Shown here in pieces: positions 10,569-40,948 of a stretch of 64,000 nt of DNA. Position 1 is the stretch's first letter. Each line of letters begins with the position of its first letter. The notes beneath the pieces were generated by a model that was given only the letters and a program-made list of their open reading frames with translations, searched no databases and was not told the DNA's origin. Source of the DNA: Lumbricus rubellus (lineage: Eukaryota; Annelida; Clitellata; Crassiclitellata; Lumbricidae); contig OX243814.1 in assembly GCA_945859605.1 (NCBI GenBank), positions 26,025,410 to 26,089,409 of the forward strand, given 5' to 3'. A program made the position numbers and the translations under genes.

Positions 10569-13553
10569 TTATTCTGTTATATGGTAAACCTTGAAACAGT
10601 TTTTTGCGTTGCTTAGGCACAGAAAGACTTGGCATTTTGTGCATTGGATACACGTCTGTCCCTTGCACATTTGGATTCTACAGTGCATCCGTCTGCTGGT
10701 CGCCTCTGGCCAGTGTCCAACTTCATCCAGTCGAACATCACTGAGTGGGACACTTTGTATACGTTGACGCTGTTTTTTTTTGACTGGTGATGATCAACGG
10801 TCGTCCAGCTGAACGTTTCATGGACTTGCGTACTTTACACAGACCTACAAGTGACAATAAAAACTGTACAACAAATGAACAATACTTATGATTAGTTTTA
10901 TGTGGAACATTGGCAAAGAGTTTATTTTTATTTCTATAAAATGTATGTCGCCCCTTCAAGAAAAATACTTTGAAGCACTCCCAAACCAGTTCTTGCACAT
11001 AAGCACTGTCCTCCAAGAAGTACAGAAGGTACCTGTCTTTTCAGAATGTTGTATGCACGGATGTCATTTGCATTAGCTAGTGTCTTTTAGAATTACATGT
11101 AGCCATAAAGTAAGAGAAAGGTCACTACAAATGGAAAGAGTGATACTGGACAGTATAATTCTGTCAATAGTAGCCAACAGTTCACCACGGGCAATTGAAC
11201 TGAGAGCAGCTCCCCTCATGTGTACTTGCATTGTATTTAGTCATGTTTTGAACAACAGTTACTGTTGAGCCACTTGCTTGAAATTACCTTCTGCGATCTC
11301 AGCCTTGAAATCTGCCAGTGCCAGATGTCCTTCACTGCTTTTCTTCTGTGTCAGTGCGCGGCGATACAGCAGCCAAGCATTTACAACTGCCAGGTCGATA
11401 CAGTGGAAGAATATTCTATGGTAGAACTTCTTCGATCTAACTCTGATCCGATAAAGACCCAGTAGGCTGTCCAAATTATCAACCCCGCCCATGTGCTTGT
11501 TGTATACTGAGATTATTCGTGGACAACTGATTTCCTTCCTGGTTTGTTCCTTCTTGCTGAATCTCCTGATCGTTTGGCATGGTTCTGCACCAACAAAAGT
11601 GGAAACTAGACTGACAACCTTGTTATCATACCATCTGACGCATGACACTTGAACGTCTTCAACAGTGGTGACATATTCAGAATGTGAACCTCGACCAGTC
11701 TTCTTCATATCTGATTCCGATGGACCTCCAAGACCTCGAAGTCGATTTAGCCGAACGGTTCAAAGACACTGTATCTGTCTGTGTTCTAGCTGAACAAGTA
11801 AGTTCAGGTTTGTAAAATAGTTGTCAAAATAAAGTTTGTGAAAAACACCTGGAGTTATGGTTCGACAGAGTCTCACGACGATGTTGCTGCTAGCACCAAC
11901 ATCTGTCTCTGTTGGTTCAACGATGTGTGGCTCTCCAGTATAAAACTCAAAATCGTACGCGAATCCTGATACTCCAGATAGCACAAACATTTTGTACCCC
12001 CACTTATGGGGTTTTCGAGGATTATATTGTTTCAATGAACTCTTCCCTTTGAAAGGGATGATCTGCTCATCCACACATAACGCCTCCTCCTTGGGTATTT
12101 GCAGCAGAGTTTCACGAATTTCATCAAGCACTGGTCGAATCTTGCGCAACTTATCCAAAGATACAGAACTGTTGTCGCTAAAATGAAGATAGCGCTTTAC
12201 TTCTTCCCATCGCTTCTGAGTCATGGTCTCCGACACAACCTTTATGTCATAGCGAGCACGCCAGTATCTGCGAGTACTTGGTACCCTTATAAGTGACATC
12301 CAAAGAACACAACCAAGGAACTGTTGCAATTCATTATCTGTTAGTTTTAGAGGTTTTTCTGGACGTTGCTGGGTAGAAAAGAGATTGCTTTGCTCAACAA
12401 TTAGCTGTCGAAGCTGAAAGCTAAAAATGTGCAGGAAGAACTGAAGGGGCGTTTTTAGCAGCAGTATTTCTGCTGGTAATTTGTCATTACCAGAGAATGG
12501 CATCTGCTTTGTAAAGTTATCAAGACGGCCTTCCACCCAATTATTTCCCTCCAATTTCCTTTGTTGCTTAGAAGTTGGAGCAGAAGTAGCTGCTGTCAAC
12601 GAAGAAGTAGCTGCAGTGGCAACAGCTTCCGGTACCACCAGAGACGTAGAAAGCATTGACTTTTGAGGGTTTACCTTGCTCATGACCGCACGCTTTGGCA
12701 CTGAAATTGTATCGACAACAGCTTCCGGTACCACCCGAGACGTAGAAAGCATTGACTTTTGAGGGTTTACCTTGCTCGTGACCGCACGCTTTGGCACTGA
12801 AATTGTATCGACAACACTTTCCGGTATTACCAGAGTCGAAGAAGAAGAAGAAGAAGCCATTGACTGTAACAGTTCAGGGTGTAACGTACGCCTCACCATA
12901 CGTTTTGGCACTGCAGTTTTATCGACAACACCTTCCGGTACTACCAGAGTCGAAGAAGAAGAAGAAGAAGCCATTGACTGTAACAGTTCAGGGTGTAACG
13001 TACGCCTCACCATACGTTTTGGCACTGCAGTTTTATCGACAACACCTTCCGGTACTACCAGAGTCGAAGAAGAAGAAGAAGAAGCCATTGACTGTAACAG
13101 TTCAGGGTGTAACGTACGCCTCACCATACGTTTTGGCACTGCAGTTTTATCGACAACACCTTCCGGTACTACCAGAGTCGAAGAAGAAGAAGAAGAAGCC
13201 ATTGACTGTAACAGTTCAGGATGTAACGTACGCCTCACCATACGTTTTGGCACTGCAGTTTTGTCGACAACACCTTCCGGTACCATCAGAGATGAAGAAG
13301 GAGGCATTGGCCTTTCATGTTCTATCTTACGCCTAACTGCATGCTTCGACACAGCATTTGCCGTGCTGGGAGCGACAGCAGCTTCCAGTTCTTCATCTTC
13401 CAGTTCTTCATCTTCCAGTTCTTCATCTGCCAATCTTGTACAAACTTTTTCTATATAATCTTCATCATCGCTTGACGCCAGCTCTGAGTCAGTACTGTCC
13501 GATGGAGGTGGTCGGACAATTCTATCCATTGATGAAACTTTTTTTTCTTCCAT
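10569..13553 (-). pseudogene. piggyBac transposase, two exons, recently broken
   Basis: Exon 1 (13553 to 11288) encodes an acidic N-terminus, tandem 38-residue repeats (residues ~80-235) and the DDE_Tnp_1_7 catalytic domain. Likely catalytic Asp positions are CVDEQIIPFKG, LYFDNYFTNL and MGGVDNLDSLLGLYRI. A TGA at 11760-11762 interrupts an otherwise continuous frame just after CL. An intron of 443 bp (11287 to 10845, GT..AG) joins AEIAEG to LCKVRKSMKRSAGRPL in phase. Exon 2 carries the C-terminal cysteine-rich domain (VRLDEVGHWPE, then CIQCTKCQVFLC, stop 10569-10571), but a run of nine T (10773-10781) puts it one base out of frame. With only two lesions this copy died recently, or one of them is a sequencing error. 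Confidence 0.88.
12857..13312. repeat. Four 114-bp tandem repeats in the piggyBac gene
   Basis: Four almost identical 114-bp units start at 12857, 12971, 13085 and 13199, each coding 38 residues with a VVPEGVVDKTAVPKRMVRR core and a Ser tract. Two more diverged units (PKRAV cores) lie at about 12600-12850. Being a multiple of three, copy number can change without breaking the frame. The repeated basic PKRMVRR could act as a nuclear-localisation signal. Confidence 0.9.
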
Positions 13554-23306: not shown

Positions 23307-23932
23307 TTAAAGGGAATTTATATTGACACATGATGACCAGATTTCATCAAAATATTTTAAACAGAACAAAAGTTATATCAGTTTCAGTGAAATCACCCAC
23401 TGTTTTTTACAATTCAAAAACATGACGCCACAAAAAGTAGCAATTAAGTCAAATCTTAATTTTTTTAAATGAAATTTTATCAAGTCATGTCTTAAACAAT
23501 TGTTATCAAATCAACTTGATAGTGTTTCATAACTTGTGTTTAATGTGTCCACTAATAGTGCCCACACTTGCTCTGAGTATCTTTTTAAGGTTCTTGATTT
23601 TCTTATTGATGTGCTCCATATCAAATGCAATGCAACTAATAATTTTCAATAAAAATATAAAAAATAAACATTCAAGTCGACCACTGACTCAGTTCATTAC
23701 TTCATTTTGCACAATGCCCAAGAGGAAAAACTTTGTGAGCTCGACCGGGCCACTTGCAATCAGCCCGCAAGATATATCAGCCCGTGGGCCATAGATTGGA
23801 CTGCACTGCTCTAATTAGAATGTTGTACTAGACTGCAAGATGTCTTGAACACTCATACCAAGACTGCATCACACCCACTCCTTGATCTCTAAAATCATAT
23901 TGGCATAAAAACGGACATTCAAGTTGACTTAC

Positions 23933-24038
23933 CATACCATTTGAAATGTCGACCCCACGATATACTCGTGACCGTGAAAACGTTTTTAACACCTCCAACA
24001 TGGAGAATCTCCCATTGAGAAGAAATGAGGACGATAAC
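23933..24038 (-). pseudogene. CK1-like kinase glycine-loop exon, copy 1
   Basis: A 106-nt exon with an AG acceptor (CTTGAAACAG) and a GTAAGT donor. It codes FLLNGRFSMLEVLKTFSRSR then VYRGVDISNGM. The spacing matches kinase subdomain I, but the GxGxxG glycines are replaced by KTFSRS. No downstream kinase exons are found next to this copy, so it is treated as a fragment. Confidence 0.55.
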
Positions 24039-24538
24039 CTGTTTCAAGGAAATAAGATAGTTAATTAGTACACTGATTATAGAACTATTAGTGCATTGGA
24101 GTATTACATTAGATGCTCTTGTTCATATTTTATGCTCCAAGTATACAAAAGTATGGAAGAATTGTGAAGATAAGCATCGCTCCAGTATATGTTCAACATA
24201 GCAGTTCCTGGTGCAGTGAGAGGAGTAAATCAGTCTATGTGGCAATCGATTGACTTTATCAGGATCCAGTAAGGTGGTGAATGGCATCAATAATTATATT
24301 CTAATCAAATGTTGCAACTATCCAGTTATTGCAGAGAAGTAAGCATGGCGCGTACAAAATATCATTGTATAAGTCTAGTTGTCATAACTACACCATTGCT
24401 CTAGACAGAATTATACATACACTTATTGTACTAGACTGCAAGCTGCCTTGAACTCTCATACCAAGACTGTATTACACCTACTCTTTGTTTTCAAAATTAC
24501 GGTAATATTGAGATAAAAACACATTCAAGTTGACTTAC

Positions 24539-24641
24539 ACCGCCATTTGTAGAGTTTATACCTTGTGAGACCTTCGATCTTGTGTATTGTTTCAGCAATT
24601 TGAGTACGGTGTACTTGCCATCCAAAACTAAATTTTCTGAC
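24539..24641 (-). pseudogene. CK1-like kinase glycine-loop exon, copy 2
   Basis: A 103-nt exon (acceptor TTAACAG, donor GTAAGT) coding GKYTVLKLLKQYTRSKVSQG then INSTNGG. Same degenerate glycine loop (KQYTRS). Confidence 0.55.
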
Positions 24642-24986
24642 CTGTTAAAAAAAAATTGATAGTCAATTAGACAAATTACAGAATTAACAGTGCAATGTAT
24701 GATTTTGTTCTTATTTTATGCTCCAAGTATACAAAAGTATGAAAGAATTGTGAAGATAAGCATCACTCCAGTATGTGTTCAACACAGCAGTTTCTGGTGC
24801 AGTGAGAGGAGTAAATCAGTCTATGTGGCAATCCAACTACATTTTTATCAGGATCCAGTACGGTGGTGAATGGCATAAATAATATTGAGATATTATATTC
24901 TAGTCAAATGCTGCAACAGTCCAATGGCAGAGAAGCAAGCATGGCAAGTGCAGACATCATTGTATAAGCCTAGTTGTCATGACAAT

Positions 24987-26623: not shown

Positions 26624-27120
26624 ATCAACTTGATAGTGCTTCATAAAGTTCTTGTGTTCAATTTGTCCACTAATAGTGCCCACACTTCCTCAGAGTATCT
26701 TTTTAAGGTTCTTGATAGTCTTATTGGTGTGCTGCATATCAACTGTAATGCAACTAATAATTTTCAATAAAAATAGACATTCAAGACGACCACTGACTCA
26801 GTTCATTACTTCATTTTACACAATGCCCAAGAGGAAAACTTTGTGAGCTCGAGCGGGCCACTTGCAATCAGCCCGCAAGATATATCAGCCCGTGGGCCAT
26901 AGGTTGGACTGCACTGCTCTAATTAGAATGATGTACCGGTACTAGACTGCAAGATGTCTTGAACTCTCATAACAAGACTGCATCACACCCACTCCTTGAT
27001 CTCTAAAATCATATTGGAATAAAAACGGACATTCAAGTTGACTTACCGTTCCATTTGAAACATGGACACCCCGATATACTCGTGACCTCGAAAACTTCTT
27101 TGAAACTTCCAGCTGGAATG
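26624..27120 (-). repeat. Third, partial copy of the duplicated block
   Basis: It matches 23511-24010 and 38991-39490 (hAT end, intron, glycine-loop exon) with more differences than those two show to each other. Its borders are fused to short pieces also seen at 21349-21391 and 21573-21592. Confidence 0.75.
27047..27120 (-). pseudogene. CK1-like kinase glycine-loop exon, truncated copy
   Basis: Coding LEVSKKFSRSRVYRGVHVSN with a good donor (GTAAGT), but its 5' part is replaced by an unrelated segment from a QNKN-type element (VAETYK..., also at 21349-21391). It lies at the end of a third partial copy of the duplicated block (26624-27120). Confidence 0.5.
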
Positions 27121-27443: not shown

Positions 27444-27656
27444 CCTGTCATCGCACCATGGAAGAGACCCAGTCCTCATAACGATGCAGATATAACCTAG
27501 ACTCGTCAGGTCATCCCTCCTTGACGGCTGCAACCCCAGGTGGATGTTGTAACTAGCGTAATACCGGGTTCCTTTGAACGGTCTGTCGAGAGTCAAAGGA
27601 AGATGTGCTCCATTTGTTTTGAACTTTTCAGCCTGACCAAAGTCGATCAGGAACAC
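27444..27656 (-). CDS. CK1-like kinase, DFG exon
   Basis: Exactly 71 codons between an AG acceptor (TTTGTCATTTCAG) and a GTAATA donor, phase 0 at both ends. It reads VFLIDFGQAEKFKTNGAHLP and continues with GTRYYASYNIHLG and SRRDDLTSLGYICIVM, ending SLPWCDDR. DFG, the TGT.RYAS.N.HLG..QSRRDDL.SLGY block and SLPW are diagnostic of the casein kinase 1 family, a group of Ser/Thr protein kinases. The exon is intact and joins in phase to the catalytic-loop exon (…LQNDKR/VFLIDFG…) across a 3.3-kb intron filled with mobile elements. The function of the whole gene is unknown. Confidence 0.8.
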
Positions 27657-27707
27657 CTGAAATGACAAATTTATTCATTTAATTACGAAAATTTATATTG
27701 CAAAACT

Positions 27708-28121
27708 TCAAGAATGTTCCTTCTTCAACATTTCCAATGTGACTTCATTCTGAAATTCTGGGACTCGTAACTGCTTTGGCCGTACTCTCGCTTTCTCTTT
27801 CATATGTCGGGTTTCCACAGCTGTTGTCACATTCAACTGCTCTTCAGTACTACCCGCATCTTTCTCTTCGTCAATCAACAAGTCTTGTTCATGTACTTCA
27901 GTACTCTTGTCCAAGGATCCGGGCCATAGTTCCGCTCCAGATATATTTCCAATTACAAGGTCGTATAATGTTTCCTTCATGCAGAGCGCTTTCACTTTCC
28001 CTGTGAAGTAGTTCGTTCTGACTTCAATGATAGCGGTTGGCACTTTCCTCATAGTTTTGTCAATCAGAATGCACAACTCATGCTTTCCAGTCTCTAGTAT
28101 TTTGATGACAATTCTAGACAC
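27708..28121 (-). pseudogene. LTR-retrotransposon pol fragment
   Basis: A 137-codon frame has IIEVRTNYFTGKVKALCMKE then LYDLVIGNISGAELWPGS. This is the pattern of the protease-to-reverse-transcriptase linker of Ty3-like polyproteins in invertebrates. No RT motif follows. It lies inside the intron between two kinase exons. Confidence 0.6.
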
Positions 28122-28244
28122 CTGTCCATAATAGGCTTGGGCTTACCTCACCATTTAAGATAACTCATGACAAGTAAGGTTAATAACAATTTGTTCTTCT
28201 GATGAGAACAATTACACCAATTACATACCATGGTGTGACTACAC

Positions 28245-29261
28245 CAGAGGTGCACAACCCGCGGCCCGCGGGCCGCATGCGGCCCCCGGACTCGTCATGT
28301 GCGGCCCTCGGCCCAATTTTAAAGGACAAAGAAAAGTGGCCCGCGATCAGAAAATTATTCACTGTATACTATTTACAACATGTCAACACAAAGAATCGCA
28401 GCTTCAATCTTGTCTGTTTCAAAGATCTTTGGTATTTATAACCAGCGACTTTATAACCCAATATTGCTTCCTCATAAATATTCTTGGGCTCTGGGTGTTA
28501 CCTATGTGCGAGAGAGTAACCCCCTCCTGTTTAAATGATAACAGATGTTACAGATAGCTAGAACCAGTCTGCGACCCCACAACCGGCTGACCTGCGTGAA
28601 GTCTCCTTCTGTGCAGCTAAACTGGCTCGTGGGCCAATCTCAAACAGGTCGGCCTAAGGTCCTGAGGTGTTCCTCATGGATTAGAGTGCCCACGTGACAG
28701 ATCCTAATGAGTATTGGAATTTCCCTTTCACAGTTTATCCTAGCATTCTTTCTTTGTTGTCAGAAACTGTTCGGTGCAACAGTTTTCAATGTAATCAATT
28801 GACTTACTTTTCTACAAAGCTAATTAGTCTAGTTACAATGCACAAAACTGCTAGTAAAAAGCGCAAAATTGAAGAAGAAAATCGCAAGTTTCAAGAGGAA
28901 TGGACATTTGAATACTTTATGGACAATGCTAACACCAAGTTGGTTTCAACACATTCAATCACAGCCATCTCATTAGCTGTGTACTGTGTAGCATGAATGT
29001 GAACTGCATGTGAAGGATTAATTAAATGGAAGTCGAGTTTCAATTCTGCTTGATTCTTGTTGTTTTCATTTACCCAAATCGCTGTTTTACTTTTGTGAGG
29101 TAGGTTTATATTCTATAATAGTAGTACTCTATACTTAAAATGCACTTTCGTCTCCAGACACATTTCACACATACTCAAATCCAGTGCATTGTGTGTGCGG
29201 CCCTCGTATTCTTTTCTAAAATGCAATCTGGCCCTTGGCCCAAAAAGGTTGTGCACCCCTG
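28245..29261 (+). mobile_element. Non-autonomous hAT, 1.0 kb, exact target duplication
   Basis: The ends are CAGAGGTGCACAACC (28245) and GGTTGTGCACCCCTG (to 29261), inverse with one mismatch. GACTACAC is duplicated exactly at 28237-28244 and 29262-29269, the 8 bp typical of hAT. GC-rich subterminal palindromes (GCGGCCCGCGGGCCGC) follow the left TIR. It sits in the kinase intron. Confidence 0.92.
28838..28996 (+). pseudogene. hAT transposase N-terminal remnant
   Basis: Inside the preceding element, MHKTASKKRKIEEENRKFQE leads into EWTFEYFMDNANTKLV, the usual start of GTF2IRD2/ZBED-like hAT transposases just before the zinc finger. The frame then degenerates. It identifies the family of the autonomous parent. 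Confidence 0.7.
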
Positions 29262-29696
29262 GACTACACTAAATCCAACACAAAAAGTTTAAAGTAATGA
29301 TTGACATCACTCGGCAGGAAGAGCACATGAAAGCAAAATCAATTCCTGAGACCATCCCAAACATCAACTCAGCCTTTAATAAACAAGAAGTCACCGGTAA
29401 AACAAGCAGTAGGATGTGGTGAATGCCCAGCAAGGATGCCAAATAGTTAATTCCCCTTCTGTAATACAGCCATTAATACTATGTAATCTTACTGCATTTA
29501 TTTCAGTTTGAAACATTAAAATGAAGATATTTAATTTTAATATTTCTCAATTAATCCATCTACCCTATTTTAAACAGTCCCAGATGAAATGCCTCAACAT
29601 TGGCGAGTTTCAGTCAATCCTCAAAGCAGTCACCAATTCCATCTAATAGGTGGCATCAAGAGCCCATCTATCTACTTTCCTTAAAGACTCCCTTCC

Positions 29697-29855
29697 TTAG
29701 CAGTCCATCAATACATCAATTTTAAAATTCTTTTCTTCATGCACACCTGCATTGTCGGTTTCATACCTTTTAAATAATTTGCTGAACTTTGATCTCATTT
29801 CTGCATGGCCAGGTCTCCCTCTTGTCAGCAGCTCATGGTCTCCAAGTGGTTTACA
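29697..29855 (-). other. Short coding-like frame of unknown origin
   Basis: Minus-strand reading gives KPLGDHELLTRGRPGHAEMR, SKFSKLFKRYETDNAGVHEE and a TAA after VLMDC. It is interrupted at its 5' side by the insertion at 29869. Family not recognised; it may be chance. Confidence 0.25.
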
Positions 29856-29868
29856 CACAGGTATACTG

Positions 29869-30724
29869 CAGTGATATTTTCATTAACGATAAGTGAAATT
29901 AGAACTGAAAATATTGATTTCCGTTAAGTATAACTGTAACTGAAATTATTTTAAGAACGAAAACTGAAATAGAACGGAAATTGAGCACACCGAACTGAAA
30001 TTAGAATAAAAACGAAAATTAATTCTCGAACTGAAATTAATGAAAAAAATGGAAATTTTAGTTGACAGTTTTTCCGATGCAGCTGTGTTTGTTTAAAAGA
30101 CGCACATACATGTACTTTCTGACTCTTACAACTTTTCTATCTTTTGCCTATATTTTGCTTTATTACGGTTAGTTTAAAAACAATTTTTCATTTGGACTTT
30201 CCCTGTAAGTTGATAATTTTCAACTTCGCGATAAGACTAGAAATCAATTGGCTAAATGACGAAAACAATGTATTGGACTTTTTAAGTAGGTTTGCTGCGA
30301 GGAAATAGACAAAATAAATGTGCTTAGGCCTATCCATGCAAGGCTTCGTGGGTCTAGCCAACCCTAAAACGGATGACTGTGGAACTACATATTATGATAA
30401 AATTTTAACATTTTACCTCTGCGCAAACAACAGAATACTAAGAAATATATTAAGAAACGGACCATGCAAAATCATGGGTGGCTGAAAACTTCCATGCGAC
30501 TTGGCCTAATCCGAGTCAGCGACTTCACCACAGAGAAAGCATGAGTGCTCCAGAAAGACGCAAGCAAAAGAACTGAATTGAGAACTGAAATTATTTCGAA
30601 AACTGAATTAGAAGTATAACTGAAATTTTTGGAAGAACTGGAACTGAATTAGAACTGAAATTGAGACCTTCCGAACTGAAATAGAAGTAAAACGGAAATT
30701 ATTTCCTGAAGTAAAATATCACTG
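29869..30724. mobile_element. Non-autonomous hAT, 856 bp, exact target duplication
   Basis: Starts CAGTGATATTTT and ends AAAATATCACTG, and GTATACTG is duplicated at 29861-29868 and 30725-30732. Both subterminal regions consist of degenerate AACTGAAATTA repeats (29890-30060 and 30560-30720). No coding sequence. Confidence 0.9.
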
Positions 30725-30728
30725 GTAT

Positions 30729-30911
30729 ACTGCTACAGCACAGTGCAGCTGGAATGGTCTTCCACGCAACCTTCGGTTTATTCAGCTGCCAGAGTGCTGC
30801 AGAGAACAAAAGGCTCTAGCCCTCTCTCCTCAGTTCCATAAGTGCCTGAAAACTTTCCTCTCAGTTGGTGACACTTCCCGGGTCAGAAGCACCACTGATC
30901 TTTCTGAGTGA
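30729..30911 (+). pseudogene. LINE reverse transcriptase, extreme C-terminus
   Basis: Plus-strand reading gives CSWNGLPRNLRFIQLPECC and LSPQFHKCLKTFL then a TGA. W.GLP..LR...F...LKTFL is the characteristic tail of CR1/L2-like LINE reverse transcriptases. The hAT at 29869-30724 is inserted at its 5' border. Confidence 0.65.
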
Positions 30912-30984
30912 AGTTTTACCATTTCTGCCAATTTACTCCAAAATACAGCATCAAATTTTCTACACGATAAAGAGACAAACTGAC

Positions 30985-31146
30985 TCTTTTGTCATTCTGC
31001 AGATCGACCACTGCATTAGAGGGCTTAACGTCATTGTGCAAATAATCATGTTCATGAGTCCACTTTCATGCAGCCACTGCATTAGATGGCTTAACATCAA
31101 GATGGAGGAAATCATGTTCGTGAATCCACCTAATGGCAGCAAGGAG
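30985..31146 (-). CDS. CK1-like kinase, catalytic-loop exon with internal duplication
   Basis: A 162-nt exon (acceptor TTTTCTCTGTAG, donor GTCAGT, phase 0 at the 3' end) contains the catalytic loop twice. WIHEHDFLHLDVKPSNAV is followed after a 66-bp tandem duplication by WTHEHDYLHNDVKPSNAV and VDLQNDKR. The catalytic Asp, Lys and Asn of the D.K..N motif are present in both, while the HRD arginine is L or N. The duplication brings a TGA between the copies (codon after VAA), so the exon as it stands cannot be read through unless splicing skips the first copy. Confidence 0.6.
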
Positions 31147-31656
31147 CTACAGAGAAAAAACACAGCAGTCATCATAATCAGTCACGATAATAATCAAAAT
31201 GCCATATAATTAATTGCACTTGACAGTGATGTATAGCTTTTAATTACTTTTTCAAAGCATTGACAAAATTGTAATTACAGTAGTGACTTCTGTTGCACTG
31301 GTATTTCATGCAAACGGTAATTTTAAATTGCTACCAGGGCAGAATATCCACATTCACAAAGATAATAACAATTTATCTGCTTCTATGTTTTTAACTAAGA
31401 AATATATAATTTTCAGGACTTACTCGCGGAGCCCCCAAGTCTGCCCTTAGTCCCTTTTGATCGTACCTCCACTATGCAACACCGTGACTTCTCCTCTTTT
31501 TAGAAGTCCTTCTCAGGCATTCCTCTTTCATCTTAGGACAGTTTTAATTGGCTGTGCTGAGCTGCCTTGAACTCCCATGCCAAGACTGTATCACACCTAC
31601 TCTTTGTTCTCAAAAATAATATAATTGGCATAAAACTGACATTCAAGTTGACTTAC

Positions 31657-31759
31657 GGCACCATTAGTAGTATTGATCCCATGAGACACCTTTGACCGGG
31701 AAAACTGCTTTAGGACTTTGAGTACAGTGTATGTACCATTTAAGATGAAATGCTCTGAC
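31657..31759 (-). CDS. CK1-like kinase, glycine-loop exon
   Basis: A 103-nt exon with clean splice sites codes SEHFILNGTYTVLKVLKQFS then RSKVSHGINTTNGA. It aligns in layout with the first strands of a casein-kinase-1 domain (..KYTVLK..[loop]..V..GINT.NG..), but the glycine-rich loop lacks its glycines. It ends in phase 0. The catalytic-loop exon (30985-31146) and DFG exon (27444-27656) lie downstream on the same strand, so this is the copy most likely to belong to the gene. The exon that should carry the beta-3 lysine was not found between 31147 and 31656. Confidence 0.6.
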
Positions 31760-32086: not shown

Positions 32087-33374
32087 TCTATATCTATAAG
32101 CAAGGATGTTTATATATTTATTTATTTATTTATATGTATGTATATATATATATTTGTCCAGAATGCACGCCCACAGTTTCGCAGCTATTGATCTGAAATT
32201 TTGCACCTAGACAGGGGTCCATCAAACTTAGCAAGTGCAGGGGTTGGCAAATTTCTAACACCATGGGGCCAGGATGGGTGGAATATTTGGGGGGGGCGAA
32301 AAAAAATTTTTTGCAGTTATTGATTCCAAATTTTGCATTTAGACAGACGACCGCCACGTCCTACCAGAAATCGAGTTTTCGAATCTGTACCACCAGGGGG
32401 AAAATGGGGAGGGGCCAAAAACTCCATTTTCCCTATTTTTACACCATCGCCATAGTTTCAGAGCTGTTCACCTGAAACGTTGCAGCTAGATAGTATGCCA
32501 CCGGGACCACCTTGCCCTACAACAACACACACCTCGCCCCGCAGGGACCGGGTAGGCAGGGCGTTGTTTAGGGGGCGAACAAATTTGGGGGGGGCGAAAT
32601 TTTTTCCAGCTATTGATGACAAATTTTGCATTTAGAAACAGGACCGTCAGGTCCACCCAGTGGAGGAGTTGGCGAATCTTTACCACTAGAGGGAGAATGG
32701 GGGGAGGGGCGAAAACTCCATTTTCCATATTTTTACACCATCGCCATAGTTTCAGAGCTATTCACCTGAAACGTTGCAGCTAGATAGTATGCCACCGGGA
32801 CCACCTTGCCCTACAACAACACACACCTCGCCCCGCAGGGACCGGGTAGGCAGGGCGTTGTTTAGGGGGGGGCAAAAAAGTTGGGGCGAAACTTTTTCAG
32901 CTATTGATGTCAAATTTTGCATTTAGAAAGAGGACCGTCAGGTCCACCCAGTGGAGGATTTGGCGAATCTTTGCCGCCAGAGGGAGAATGGGGGAGGGGC
33001 GAAAACTCCATTTTCCCTATTTTTACACCATCGCCATAGTTTCAGAGCTATTCACCTGAAACGTTGCAGCTAGACAGAATGCCACCGGGACCACCTTGCT
33101 CCAACAACACACACCTCGGCCCGCAGGGGCCGGGTGGGGCAGGGCATTGTTTGGGGTGGGGGGGGGGGCAAAATTTGGGTGGGGAAAATTTTTTTGCAGC
33201 TTTGCAGCTATTGATATGAAATTTTGCATGTAGACAGAAGACCGTCAAGTCCAGCCAGTGGAGGGAGCCATGATGGGGGCCCGAAAACCCAAACTTTTGC
33301 TACTTCTATTACGTCGCCATAGCTTCACGGCTATTTACATAAAATTCCCGGGCATCGCCGGGTACCCCAGCTAG
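32087..33374 (+). mobile_element. Non-autonomous Helitron, 1.29 kb
   Basis: Begins TCTATATCTATAAG after an A and ends with hairpin CCCGG-GCATCG-CCGGG (33347-33362), TACCCCAG and CTAG, followed by T: the TC...hairpin-CTAG structure between A and T of Helitrons. The flanks 'cagaata' and 'tcattata' join to match the uninterrupted paralogue at 40434-40445 (cagacatcattata), an empty site that confirms both borders. The interior is a satellite array. No Rep/helicase gene. Confidence 0.92.
32150..33340. repeat. Satellite array, ~290-bp unit, inside the Helitron
   Basis: About four to five units; the landmark GAGCT(A/G)TTCACCTGAAACG occurs at 32461, 32755 and 33045 (periods 294 and 290). Outer units are diverged. 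G-runs of up to 11 occur at unit ends. Reading frames here are repeat translations, not genes. Confidence 0.9.
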
Positions 33375-38489: not shown

Positions 38490-38975
38490 GACACTTTTCT
38501 TGCTTTGCTATCAGCGAAGTCTTTAATGATGTCACGAAAGTCAATGCTTCGCAAGACATCGCTTTCAATGCTCATCAGTGACAGCCAATTCAACTTCTCC
38601 TGGTCCAAAGTTGTTCTAAGACGATTTTTTTATTATTTTAAGCTTGGAAAAGGATCTTTGTCCACTGCAATTTGAGACCATCATACATAGATATATGCTC
38701 AGCATGATATCAATGTTAGGAAACACAGACTTCAAATCTTTTGTGGCCATCATTGTGTACATCCACTGTTCAATACTTCCTTGCAGTGGTTTTTTGTCTT
38801 CACCAAGGAGTGCCATGAGCGGCAAAAACTGATTCAGTTCATCGCCAAGAGTGTCCTCGATGTCAGATGAGTAGATGTCAACCAAGTTCTTTGCAGCTGT
38901 TCTCAATTCACAAAAAGTAGCAATTAAGTCAAATCTTAATTTCTTGAAATTAAATTTTATTAAGTCATGTCTCAA
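38490..38975 (-). pseudogene. hAT transposase C-terminal fragment (ZMYM1-like)
   Basis: Reads LIATFCELRTAAKNLVDIYS, then the dimerisation segment YLCMMVSNCSGQRSFSKLKI followed, out of frame, by LRTTLDQEKLNWLSLMSIES and DIIKDFADSKARK. The 5' side runs into the segmental duplication, whose hAT terminus (CTGCACTG ending at 39289) is probably the same element's end. Its other terminus was not found. Confidence 0.7.
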
Positions 38976-39413
38976 ATAATTATTATCAAATCAACTTGAT
39001 AGTGCTTCATAAAGTTCTTGTGTTCAATGTGTCCACTAATAGTGCCCACACTTGCTCTGAGTATCTTTAAGGTTCTTGATGGTCTTATTGATGTGCTCCA
39101 TATAAAATGCAATGCAACTAATAATTTTCAATAAAAATATATAAATAAACATTCAAGTCGACCACTGACTCAGTTCATTACTTCATTTTGCACAATGCCC
39201 AAGAGGAAAAACTTTGTGAGCTCGACCGGGCCACTTGCAATCAGCCCGCAAGATATATCAGCCCGTGGGCCATAGATTGGACTGCACTGCTCTAATTAGA
39301 ATGTTGTACTAGACTGCAAGATGTCTTGAACACTCATACCAAGACTGCATCACACCCACTCCTTGATCTCTAAAATCATATTGGCATAAAAACGGACATT
39401 CAAGTTGACTTAC

Positions 39414-39519
39414 CATACCATTTGAAATGTCGACCCCACGATATACTCGTGACCGTGAAAACGTTTTTAACACCTCCAACATGGAGAATCTCCCATTGAG
39501 AAGAAATGAGGACGATAAC
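39414..39519 (-). pseudogene. CK1-like kinase glycine-loop exon, duplicated copy 1
   Basis: Identical in layout to 23933-24038, being inside the second copy of the segmental duplication. Confidence 0.55.
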
Positions 39520-40021
39520 CTGTTTCATGGAAATAAGATAGTTAATTAGTACACTGATTATAGAACTATTAGTGCATTGGAGTATTACATTAGATGCTCT
39601 TGTTCATATTTTATGCTCCAAGTATACAAAAGTATGGAAGAATTGTGAAGATAAGCATCGCTCCAGTATATGTTCAACATAGCAGTTCCTGGTGCAGTGA
39701 GAGGAGTAAATCAGTCTATGTGGCAATCGATTGACTTTATCAGGATCCAGTAAGGTGGTGAATGGCATCAATAATTATATTCTAATCAAATGTTGCAACT
39801 ATCCAGTTATTGCAGAGAAGTAAGCATGGCGCGTACAAAATATCATTGTATAAGTCTAGTTGTCATAACTACACCATTGCTCTAGACAGAATTATACATA
39901 CACTTATTGTACTAGACTGCAAGCTGCCTTGAACTCTCATACCAAGACTGTATTACACCTACTCTTTGTTCTCAAAATTACGGTAATATTGAGATAAAAA
40001 CAGACATTCAAGTTGACTTAC

Positions 40022-40124
40022 ACCGCCATTTGTAGAGTTTATACCTTGTGAGACCTTCGATCTTGTGTATTGTTTCAGCAATTTGAGTACGGTGTACTTG
40101 CCATCCAGCACAAAGTTTTCTGAC
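40022..40124 (-). pseudogene. CK1-like kinase glycine-loop exon, duplicated copy 2
   Basis: Counterpart of 24539-24641 with a few substitutions (LVLDGK becomes FVLDGK). Upstream on the same strand, 40158-40361 holds a 67-codon frame whose sequence recurs beside every glycine-loop exon. Its frame is not conserved in all copies, so I read it as intron. Confidence 0.5.
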
Positions 40125-40948
40125 CTGTTAAAAAAAATTGATAGTCAATTAGACAAATTACAGAATTAACAGTGCAATGTATGATTTTGTTCTTATTTTA
40201 TGCTCCAAGTATACAAAAGTATGAAAGAATTGTGAAGATAAGCACTGCCACAGTATATGTTCAACATAGCTCTCCCTGCTGCACGAAGAGGAGTAAATCA
40301 GTCTGTGTGGCAATCCAACTACATTTTTATCAGGATCCAGTACGGTGGTGAATGGCATCAATAAAATTGAAATATTATATTCTAGTCAAATGCTGCAACT
40401 GTCCAATGGCAGAGAAGCAAGCATGGCAAGTGCAGACATCATTATAGAAGCCTAGTTGTCATGACAATACCTCTGCCTGGTTTGAAGACATGACAGTCTA
40501 TGCGTGTATTCACTATTTTTCGCTTCATTGGTCTTCTTGTTCTTGCTGTGTTTAGGACCCATGGCGTATCTTACACACCGCATATTGAAGCCTATACAAA
40601 TCAGTTCTATCGAGATAAAGACGACGACAATAAATCAAATCGGAAACTCCTTGTAAGGTCACACTTGAAACCTTTAACACGCGCTTAGTAGACGCTGTGC
40701 CAACCAACGACCTGGTGTCTACCACAATGTAAAAGATCATGGTTGATAGATTTTGGAAAAACTTTGTTGCGAGATCTCGTCAAAACGTCACCGAAAATCA
40801 CGAGATAAACAGCTAACGAAATTTCTGGTATTTGTAGGTAATATTATCTAGATATTCCCAGAGGGTAGAATGATTTTTAGAGTAGCTCCTAATATTAAGA
40901 TGAAGAATTTTAACGTTATAGTGAAGTTTGGATCGAGTGATCGTACTG

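Follow-up and report, generated by a model that had tools for sequence, protein, structure and literature searches.

Introduction

In the primate L and M opsin genes, gene conversion homogenises the introns while selection keeps the exons, synonymous sites included, apart, and the conversion tracts are mostly intronic (PMC3213168). An article on the Dscam arrays of Daphnia and Drosophila reports that no gene conversion among paralogous exons was found (PMC3236188). Here we describe a 64,000-nucleotide stretch of the Lumbricus rubellus genome (the window; C4:26025410-26089409, contig OX243814.1), the minus strand of which carries a first-exon-like unit (exon A) in six copies, together with a single catalytic-loop exon (B) and a single DFG exon (C), apparently derived from the gene of the kinase CK1-alpha (CSNK1A1). 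Between the types of exon A the introns are more alike than the exons, whose synonymous sites are saturated. In a literature search covering titles and abstract openings we found no such CK1 locus described.

The locus resembles the CK1-alpha genes, including those on contigs C8 and C2 of the same genome, in that exons A, B and C match exons 1, 4 and 5 with the same borders and that the DFG and SRRDD blocks are present. Unlike in CK1-alpha, however, the glycine loop is replaced, HRD has become HLD or HND, exon B holds a stop codon, exons 2, 3, 6 and 7 were not found in the window and 50 kb on each side of it (164 kb), and an intron precedes exon A, which the C8 and C2 reading frames lack. VRK, a CK1-group kinase like TTBK, also has a non-HRD catalytic loop (HGD). 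Both families give weaker matches to exon C (E 6e-9 for VRK1 and 2e-7 for TTBK1) and score lower than delta and CK1-alpha do; CK1-alpha is also favoured by the exon borders in common. As in the primate opsins (PMC3213168), neighbouring copies at the locus resemble each other more in their introns than in their exons, synonymous sites included, but its exon A synonymous sites are saturated, its edges are junction-sharp and its host gene is broken. Like Dscam-type mutually exclusive exons, it has tandem exon copies with phases barring joint inclusion, whereas its exon A introns are unusually alike and exon A is known from DNA alone.

Results

Six copies of a first-exon-like unit in the window

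The genome searched was a 787-Mb assembly of 368 contigs; the genome searches score the best candidates only, and match counts from them are lower bounds. The exons recognised in the window are as follows.

40022..40124, minus strand: exon A copy 1 (type 1), SENFVLDGKYTVLKLLKQYTRSKVSQGINSTNGG; frame, acceptor and donor intact (tblastn, sequence, alignment)
39414..39519, minus strand: exon A copy 2 (type 2), SSSFLLNGRFSMLEVLKTFSRSRVYRGVDISNGM; extra leading codon, frame and splice sites intact
31657..31759, minus strand: exon A copy 3 (type 1b), SEHFILNGTYTVLKVLKQFSRSKVSHGINTTNGA; frame and splice sites intact; the subdomain I exon of the initial annotation
27047..27112, minus strand: exon A copy 4 (type 2b); acceptor and 5' part gone, last 22 codons and donor retained
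24539..24641, minus strand: exon A copy 5 (type 1); recently duplicated counterpart of copy 1, with 4 exon differences within 8 bp
23933..24038, minus strand: exon A copy 6 (type 2); recently duplicated counterpart of copy 2, without exon differences
30985..31146, minus strand: exon B, catalytic loop, with tandem 66-bp halves HLDVKPSN and HNDVKPSN; counterpart of CK1-alpha exon 4
27444..27656, minus strand: exon C, DFG to SRRDDL block, open frame; counterpart of CK1-alpha exon 5

An initial annotation of the window had proposed three of these exons (copy 3 of exon A, exon B and exon C), and their positions, strand and AG/GT borders were confirmed. The full exon A copies, 103 or 106 nt long, begin at 40124, 39519, 31759, 24641 and 24038, with frame and splice sites intact in 5/5, and copies 1 and 2, like copies 5 and 6, lie ~600 bp apart. 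With phase 2 at its start and phase 0 at its end, no full exon A can be spliced in series with another unless the frame shifts; tandem homologous exons with phases that bar joint inclusion are the arrangement of mutually exclusive exons.

A profile built from four exon A copies gave six matches in the window, the next fragment having an E value of 2, and in the 164 kb it gave the same six, with the next fragment at E 0.095. Searching the whole genome with the DNA of the exon A unit returned at least 6 matches, 6/6 of them in the window, and the type-1 exon A protein returned at least 5 matches with E no higher than 1, each of them inside the window. Thus, as far as the genome searches reach, the first exon has been multiplied and its unit is confined to the window. 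Among the candidates scored, no second close copy of exon B or of exon C was found in the genome, the next best being 45% identical (E 0.006) for exon B and 50% identical (E 2e-15) for exon C. The best exon B match outside the window (L036, C2:20742102-20742188) extends over 29 residues. The fragment at E 0.095 lies on the plus strand 38.3 kb before the window start (L025) and its sequence, MQLKQFTRTKMTEDIN, resembles the exon A loop, a likeness for which chance is a possible cause.

Exons of exon A are more diverged than their introns

Comparison of the exon A copies revealed an inversion of the usual relation between exon and intron, which the initial annotation had missed. Among the five full copies, the flanking introns on both sides are 79-87% identical between types, and the exons 48-67%. 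For the pairs 1-3, 1-2 and 2-3, third positions differ at 25/34, 23/34 and 19/34, and the introns of the same pairs at 57/410, 64/422 and 69/415 sites (third positions versus introns, p 2e-13, 1e-10 and 1e-6), all as uncorrected proportions from 34 codons and three full exon types in pairs that are not independent. First and second positions together differ at 11/68, 30/68 and 25/68. Where these pairs share a residue they use the same codon in 7/24, 3/13 and 7/17 cases, with 8.6, 4.0 and 5.6 expected by chance, and between exon A types pN is 0.14-0.41 and pS 0.75-1.01. The synonymous sites of exon A are saturated and, since pN has stayed at 0.14-0.41, the exon A protein has been under purifying selection. 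A dN/dS near 1, which the initial annotation had named as evidence against its gene, is not what we see; the ratio is far below 1 between exon types.

The shift in identity is abrupt and falls at the splice junctions. Counted by column, the units agree in 43/56 comparisons over the 20 columns before the acceptor and in 21/36 over the first 15 exon columns; at the other border the counts are 28/45 in the last exon bin and 57/60 in the 20 columns after the donor, the exon bins lying at 53-62%.

The same excess appears in a closer pair. Between copies 2 and 4, 15/66 exon sites differ, affecting 14 codons of which 9 retain their residue, with 8/22 third positions changed, versus 18/417 sites (4.3%; gap columns left out) in the flank and the DNA beyond it (exon excess, p 3e-6). 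Constraint on the flank as the cause of the slow introns was rejected for this pair because DNA further out is just as similar (5/147 and 9/152 versus 4/118); from its appearance this DNA may be transposon. An origin of copy 4 as a mosaic from type-1 exons found no support, a type-1 copy having the base of copy 4 at 8/15 of the differing sites and that of copy 2 at 10/15.

The youngest pairs hold barely enough differences to be informative. Between copies 1 and 5 there are 4 exon changes, clustered within 8 bp, and 3/34 third positions are changed, versus 15/1216 non-coding sites (98.8% identical) outside an intron patch described below, a weak difference (p 0.011). Copies 2 and 6 have 0/106 exon changes and 1/443 non-coding changes.

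Control genes and a gene conversion tract

As a control we compared the CK1-alpha genes on C8 and C2, a single gene pair in which the 5' border of exon 3 is unfixed. Their third positions differ at 16/26, 20/33, 19/43, 20/33 and 36/73 sites in exons 1 to 5. Of the 150-bp flanks, 8/10 are 55-63% identical and 2/10 reach 70%, one of the latter being the 5' flank of exon 1, which is still partly coding (the exon was started at KYRL); shuffled identity for the five 5' control flanks is 58-63%. The third-position divergence of the exon A units is similar to or above that of the control, yet their introns align over their length.

The blocks that carry the recent duplicates, and a patch in one of them, are as follows.

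38909..40468, minus strand: block with exon A copies 1 and 2 and their introns, 96.7% identical to 23429-24986
23429..24986, minus strand: second copy of that block, with exon A copies 5 and 6; differences mapped against 38909-40468
24763..24804, minus strand: patch in the 5' intron of copy 5 with 15 differences from copy 1, of which 11 equal the type-2 unit; interpreted as a tract of gene conversion

In the patch 15/44 sites differ from copy 1, versus the 15/1216 elsewhere, and 11/15 of these differences have the state of the type-2 unit. Gene conversion has therefore acted in the intron of exon A copy 5; this is the one tract found.

The glycine loop and the catalytic motifs

At the position of GSGSFG in CK1-alpha, copies 1 and 5 have KQYTRS, copy 3 KQFSRS, copies 2 and 6 KTFSRS and copy 4 KKFSRS, so that 6/6 exon A copies (five full, one truncated) read K-[QTK]-[FY]-[ST]-R-S and none has GxGxxG. 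The six copies announced by the initial annotation are thus there, with the glycines replaced in every one, but the one at 27.1 kb is truncated and lacks its 5' part and acceptor. Its proposal that the glycines were lost ancestrally and not through decay also holds, in the sense of an old, maintained state in which residues were retained while codons were randomised. The two halves of exon B have HLD (first) and HND (second) in place of HRD, bearing out the altered arginine noted earlier; the catalytic-loop D, K and N and the DFG motif are retained.

Altered loops were also seen elsewhere. A 474-aa CK1-like protein from another source (P0002) has a partly altered loop (ARSGLGQV) and NFG for DFG. 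Two loci of this genome, L005 (C6:8093525-8096734) and L006 (C6:4174341-4177550), have a CK1-alpha-like, intronless kinase domain in frames of 329 and 355 aa and are presumably retrocopies; L006 has lost the first loop glycine (IHSGSFADIYLG).

Origin of the exons from CK1-alpha

Taken together, sequence similarity and the intron positions shared with CK1-alpha genes of the same genome indicate that the three exons are real and CK1-alpha-derived, which narrows the CK1 family origin suggested by the initial annotation. Exon C found CK1-alpha as its best match in PDB (E 8e-16), followed by delta and epsilon and, more weakly, VRK1 and TTBK1; alone against Pfam it matched Pkinase at 18.2 bits, below the curated cut-off of 31.7 bits, and the joined exons matched Pkinase at 4e-14. 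The next eight best genome places for exon C are 45-52% identical, and the four that were read (L002, L005, L006 and L007) are all CK1-alpha-like. The exon B halves matched a CK1-delta domain at E 0.0028 and 0.13, and a CK1-like profile, which includes proteins found with these exons, at 1.7e-5 and 3.6e-5.

The three exons joined matched CK1-alpha at 2.4e-23 through their B and C part; in the three alignments that include exon A, its share is 1.5, 1.9 and -1.9 bits. Because of this small contribution exon A was given its own test, an ungapped comparison in fixed register with CK1-alpha subdomain I, in which it scored 38-45 with 7 to 10/32 identities. The mean of shuffled sequences was near -29, and 0/50,000 shuffles matched the score in 4/4 copies tested. 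When the CK1-alpha protein of the genome itself was compared with six-frame fragments of the 164 kb, five exon A copies were found at E 0.05, 0.05, 0.17, 1.2 and 6.6, with one unrelated fragment (E 4.9) ranking among them. Exon A alone gave nothing at E<=1 in Pfam, and its four-sequence profile no chain at E<=10 in PDB; profiles of the CK1-like family brought up none of its copies in frame at E<=20, either in the window or in the 164 kb.

The strongest argument for CK1-alpha descent of exon A is gene structure. In the CK1-alpha genes on C8 and C2, exon 1 ends after ANGE, exon 4 begins with MIGRIEY and ends with HCNK, and exon 5 spans VFLIDYG to QGLK. At the locus exon A ends one residue past NG, exon B begins with LLAAIRW and ends with QNDKR, and exon C spans VFLIDFG to CDDR. 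The 3' end of exon A and exon 1, and both ends of exon B and exon 4 and of exon C and exon 5, are common to the locus and these genes and have the same phase.

Against 5.8 billion proteins exon C alone had no match, and padded exon sets gave 2 and 4 matches, to five distinct proteins. By eye, P0002 and P0003 alone among the five extend to the loop region, and the exon A motif is absent from both. Two stretches of viral contigs that fitted a pattern were examined and neither is a relative.

The locus is broken as a kinase gene

Exon B is not open: an in-frame TGA lies at 31068-31066, between its tandem halves. Exons for the ATP-binding (VAIK) lysine, the alphaC glutamate, the hinge and the C-lobe did not stand out in the window when it was compared with a CK1-delta domain, nor were they, or any of exons 2, 3, 6 and 7, found among the matches listed for the 164 kb, for which profiles and single-exon queries were used. 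An exon for the VAIK lysine, alphaC or hinge may lie far away or be beyond recognition. The 510 bp between exon A copy 3 and exon B, where CK1-alpha has exons 2 and 3, contain no open frame longer than 39 aa. With this stop codon and the C-lobe exons not found in the 164 kb, there is no full-length open kinase domain, and from its sequence the locus looks like a relic as a kinase.

Other features of the region

Between exons B and C the following element was found.

28245..29261, no strand assigned: hAT-like non-autonomous element with inverted ends and an 8-bp target duplication, GTGTAGTC

It is ~1 kb long, and we take hAT to be its class. Between the same exons, at 28142-27708 on the minus strand, lies a 144-aa open frame presumably resembling a retroelement protease region. 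Upstream of exon A copy 3, positions 32304-33156 hold ~2.9 copies of a 294-bp tandem repeat, and 12786-13300 hold 4.5 copies, 97% alike, of a 114-bp tandem repeat within a long minus-strand open frame (13562-11760). Ahead of the window, at a distance of ~0.8 to 7.6 kb from its start (L028), weak matches occur as mirrored pairs on opposite strands, which suggests a large inverted repeat.

Discussion

Our favoured explanation, to which we give an even chance, is that the locus is the remains of a CK1-alpha-derived gene whose exon A variants would be old and selected, their introns having been homogenised by gene conversion, as in the primate opsins. As far as the genome searches reach, the first exon of this gene has been multiplied at the locus alone; types 1, 1b, 2 and 2b would be old variants in which the six glycine-loop positions had turned into K-x-aromatic-S/T-R-S. 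Purifying selection on the protein would have held the exon types apart while synonymous sites became saturated, and ectopic gene conversion or unequal exchange between units may have rewritten the introns repeatedly, so that introns look young (~15% apart) and exons old. If used, the full exon A copies would be alternatives, as their phases suggest, and the kinase as such would no longer be encoded here. Several points weigh against this explanation. The gradient of identity toward the exon that conversion should leave is not seen, and conversion edges are needed repeatedly at splice junctions; no donor for the exon sequence of copy 4 was found among the copies known, and copies 2 and 4, which differ at 15/66 sites in the exon part, are 4.3% apart (18/417) throughout their downstream DNA. 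Moreover, its base is 34 codons and three full exon types, read from DNA.

In an unlikely alternative, the introns would date the copies correctly and only the exon would have taken synonymous substitutions several times faster than neutral, its protein held by purifying selection. Nucleotide-level selection, such as evasion of small RNAs pairing with the spliced message, or a mutagenic process acting via spliced RNA, might bring this about. In its favour are edges that are junction-sharp and lack a gradient, the exon-only excess between copies 2 and 4 (p 3e-6) and the cluster of 4 exon differences in 8 bp that separates copies 1 and 5, although these are 98.8% identical in non-coding DNA apart from the patch. 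There is also a rough clock, third-position differences of 3/34, 8/22 and 19-25/34 accompanying non-coding distances of 0.012, 0.043 and 0.14-0.17. However, we can cite no known animal mechanism of this kind, an intron of the locus does show gene conversion, the 3/34 pair is weak (p 0.011), and copies 2 and 6 have 0/106 exon changes, though few are expected at 1/443 in non-coding DNA. We consider it improbable that a short coding exon of an animal-type genome evolves several times faster than its own introns at synonymous and non-synonymous sites, with edges at the junctions and its protein kept; if it did, a process on spliced RNA would be implied, either selection for nucleotide change (escape from small RNAs) or mutagenic copying of spliced RNA into the gene. 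Sharp edges and saturated synonymous sites would be accounted for together if the types were old balanced exon alleles, as in MHC exon 2, with recombination homogenising the introns and unequal exchange setting the alleles in tandem. This is doubtful: one assembly is the sole sample, the tandem order of type 1 and type 2 is the same in both blocks, which fits paralogs better, and copies 1 and 3 still have 24/34 residues in common.

The initial annotation had seen in the locus a living atypical CK1 gene, whose nucleotide binding might differ. Such a gene, or a set of mutually exclusive glycine-less loop exons with the other exons distant or unrecognisable, would be consistent with the intact frames and splice sites of 5/5 full exon A copies, the open exon C, the phase 2-to-0 asymmetry known from mutually exclusive exons and the kept catalytic-loop D, K and N and DFG. 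We give this little credence in view of the TGA in exon B, the VAIK-lysine, alphaC, hinge and C-lobe exons (among them exons 2, 3, 6 and 7) for which the 164 kb gave no match among those listed, the 510 bp between exon A copy 3 and exon B that have no open frame above 39 aa, and the failure to find, among the candidates scored, a second close copy of exons B and C in the genome; a working kinase gene is not what these results describe. Nor does plain pseudogene decay, with the glycines lost after the death of the gene, fit, although the stop codon, the missing exons, the inserted element and the truncated exon copy would follow from it. Third-position change exceeds that at first and second positions, five frames with their splice sites are intact, and the same replaced loop stands in all six copies despite randomised codons; for exon A decay is close to refuted, and for the locus we hold it highly improbable.

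As a kinase, the locus is ordinary wreckage. Exon A, however, is unusual in molecular evolution, as a 103-bp exon with saturated synonymous sites between introns that are both 79-87% identical. Should the conversion explanation fail, something acts on the exon alone. If it is true, selection has long kept the exon A types distinct, which would imply a function for a glycine-less CK1 loop, one that would be unexpected from a broken locus.

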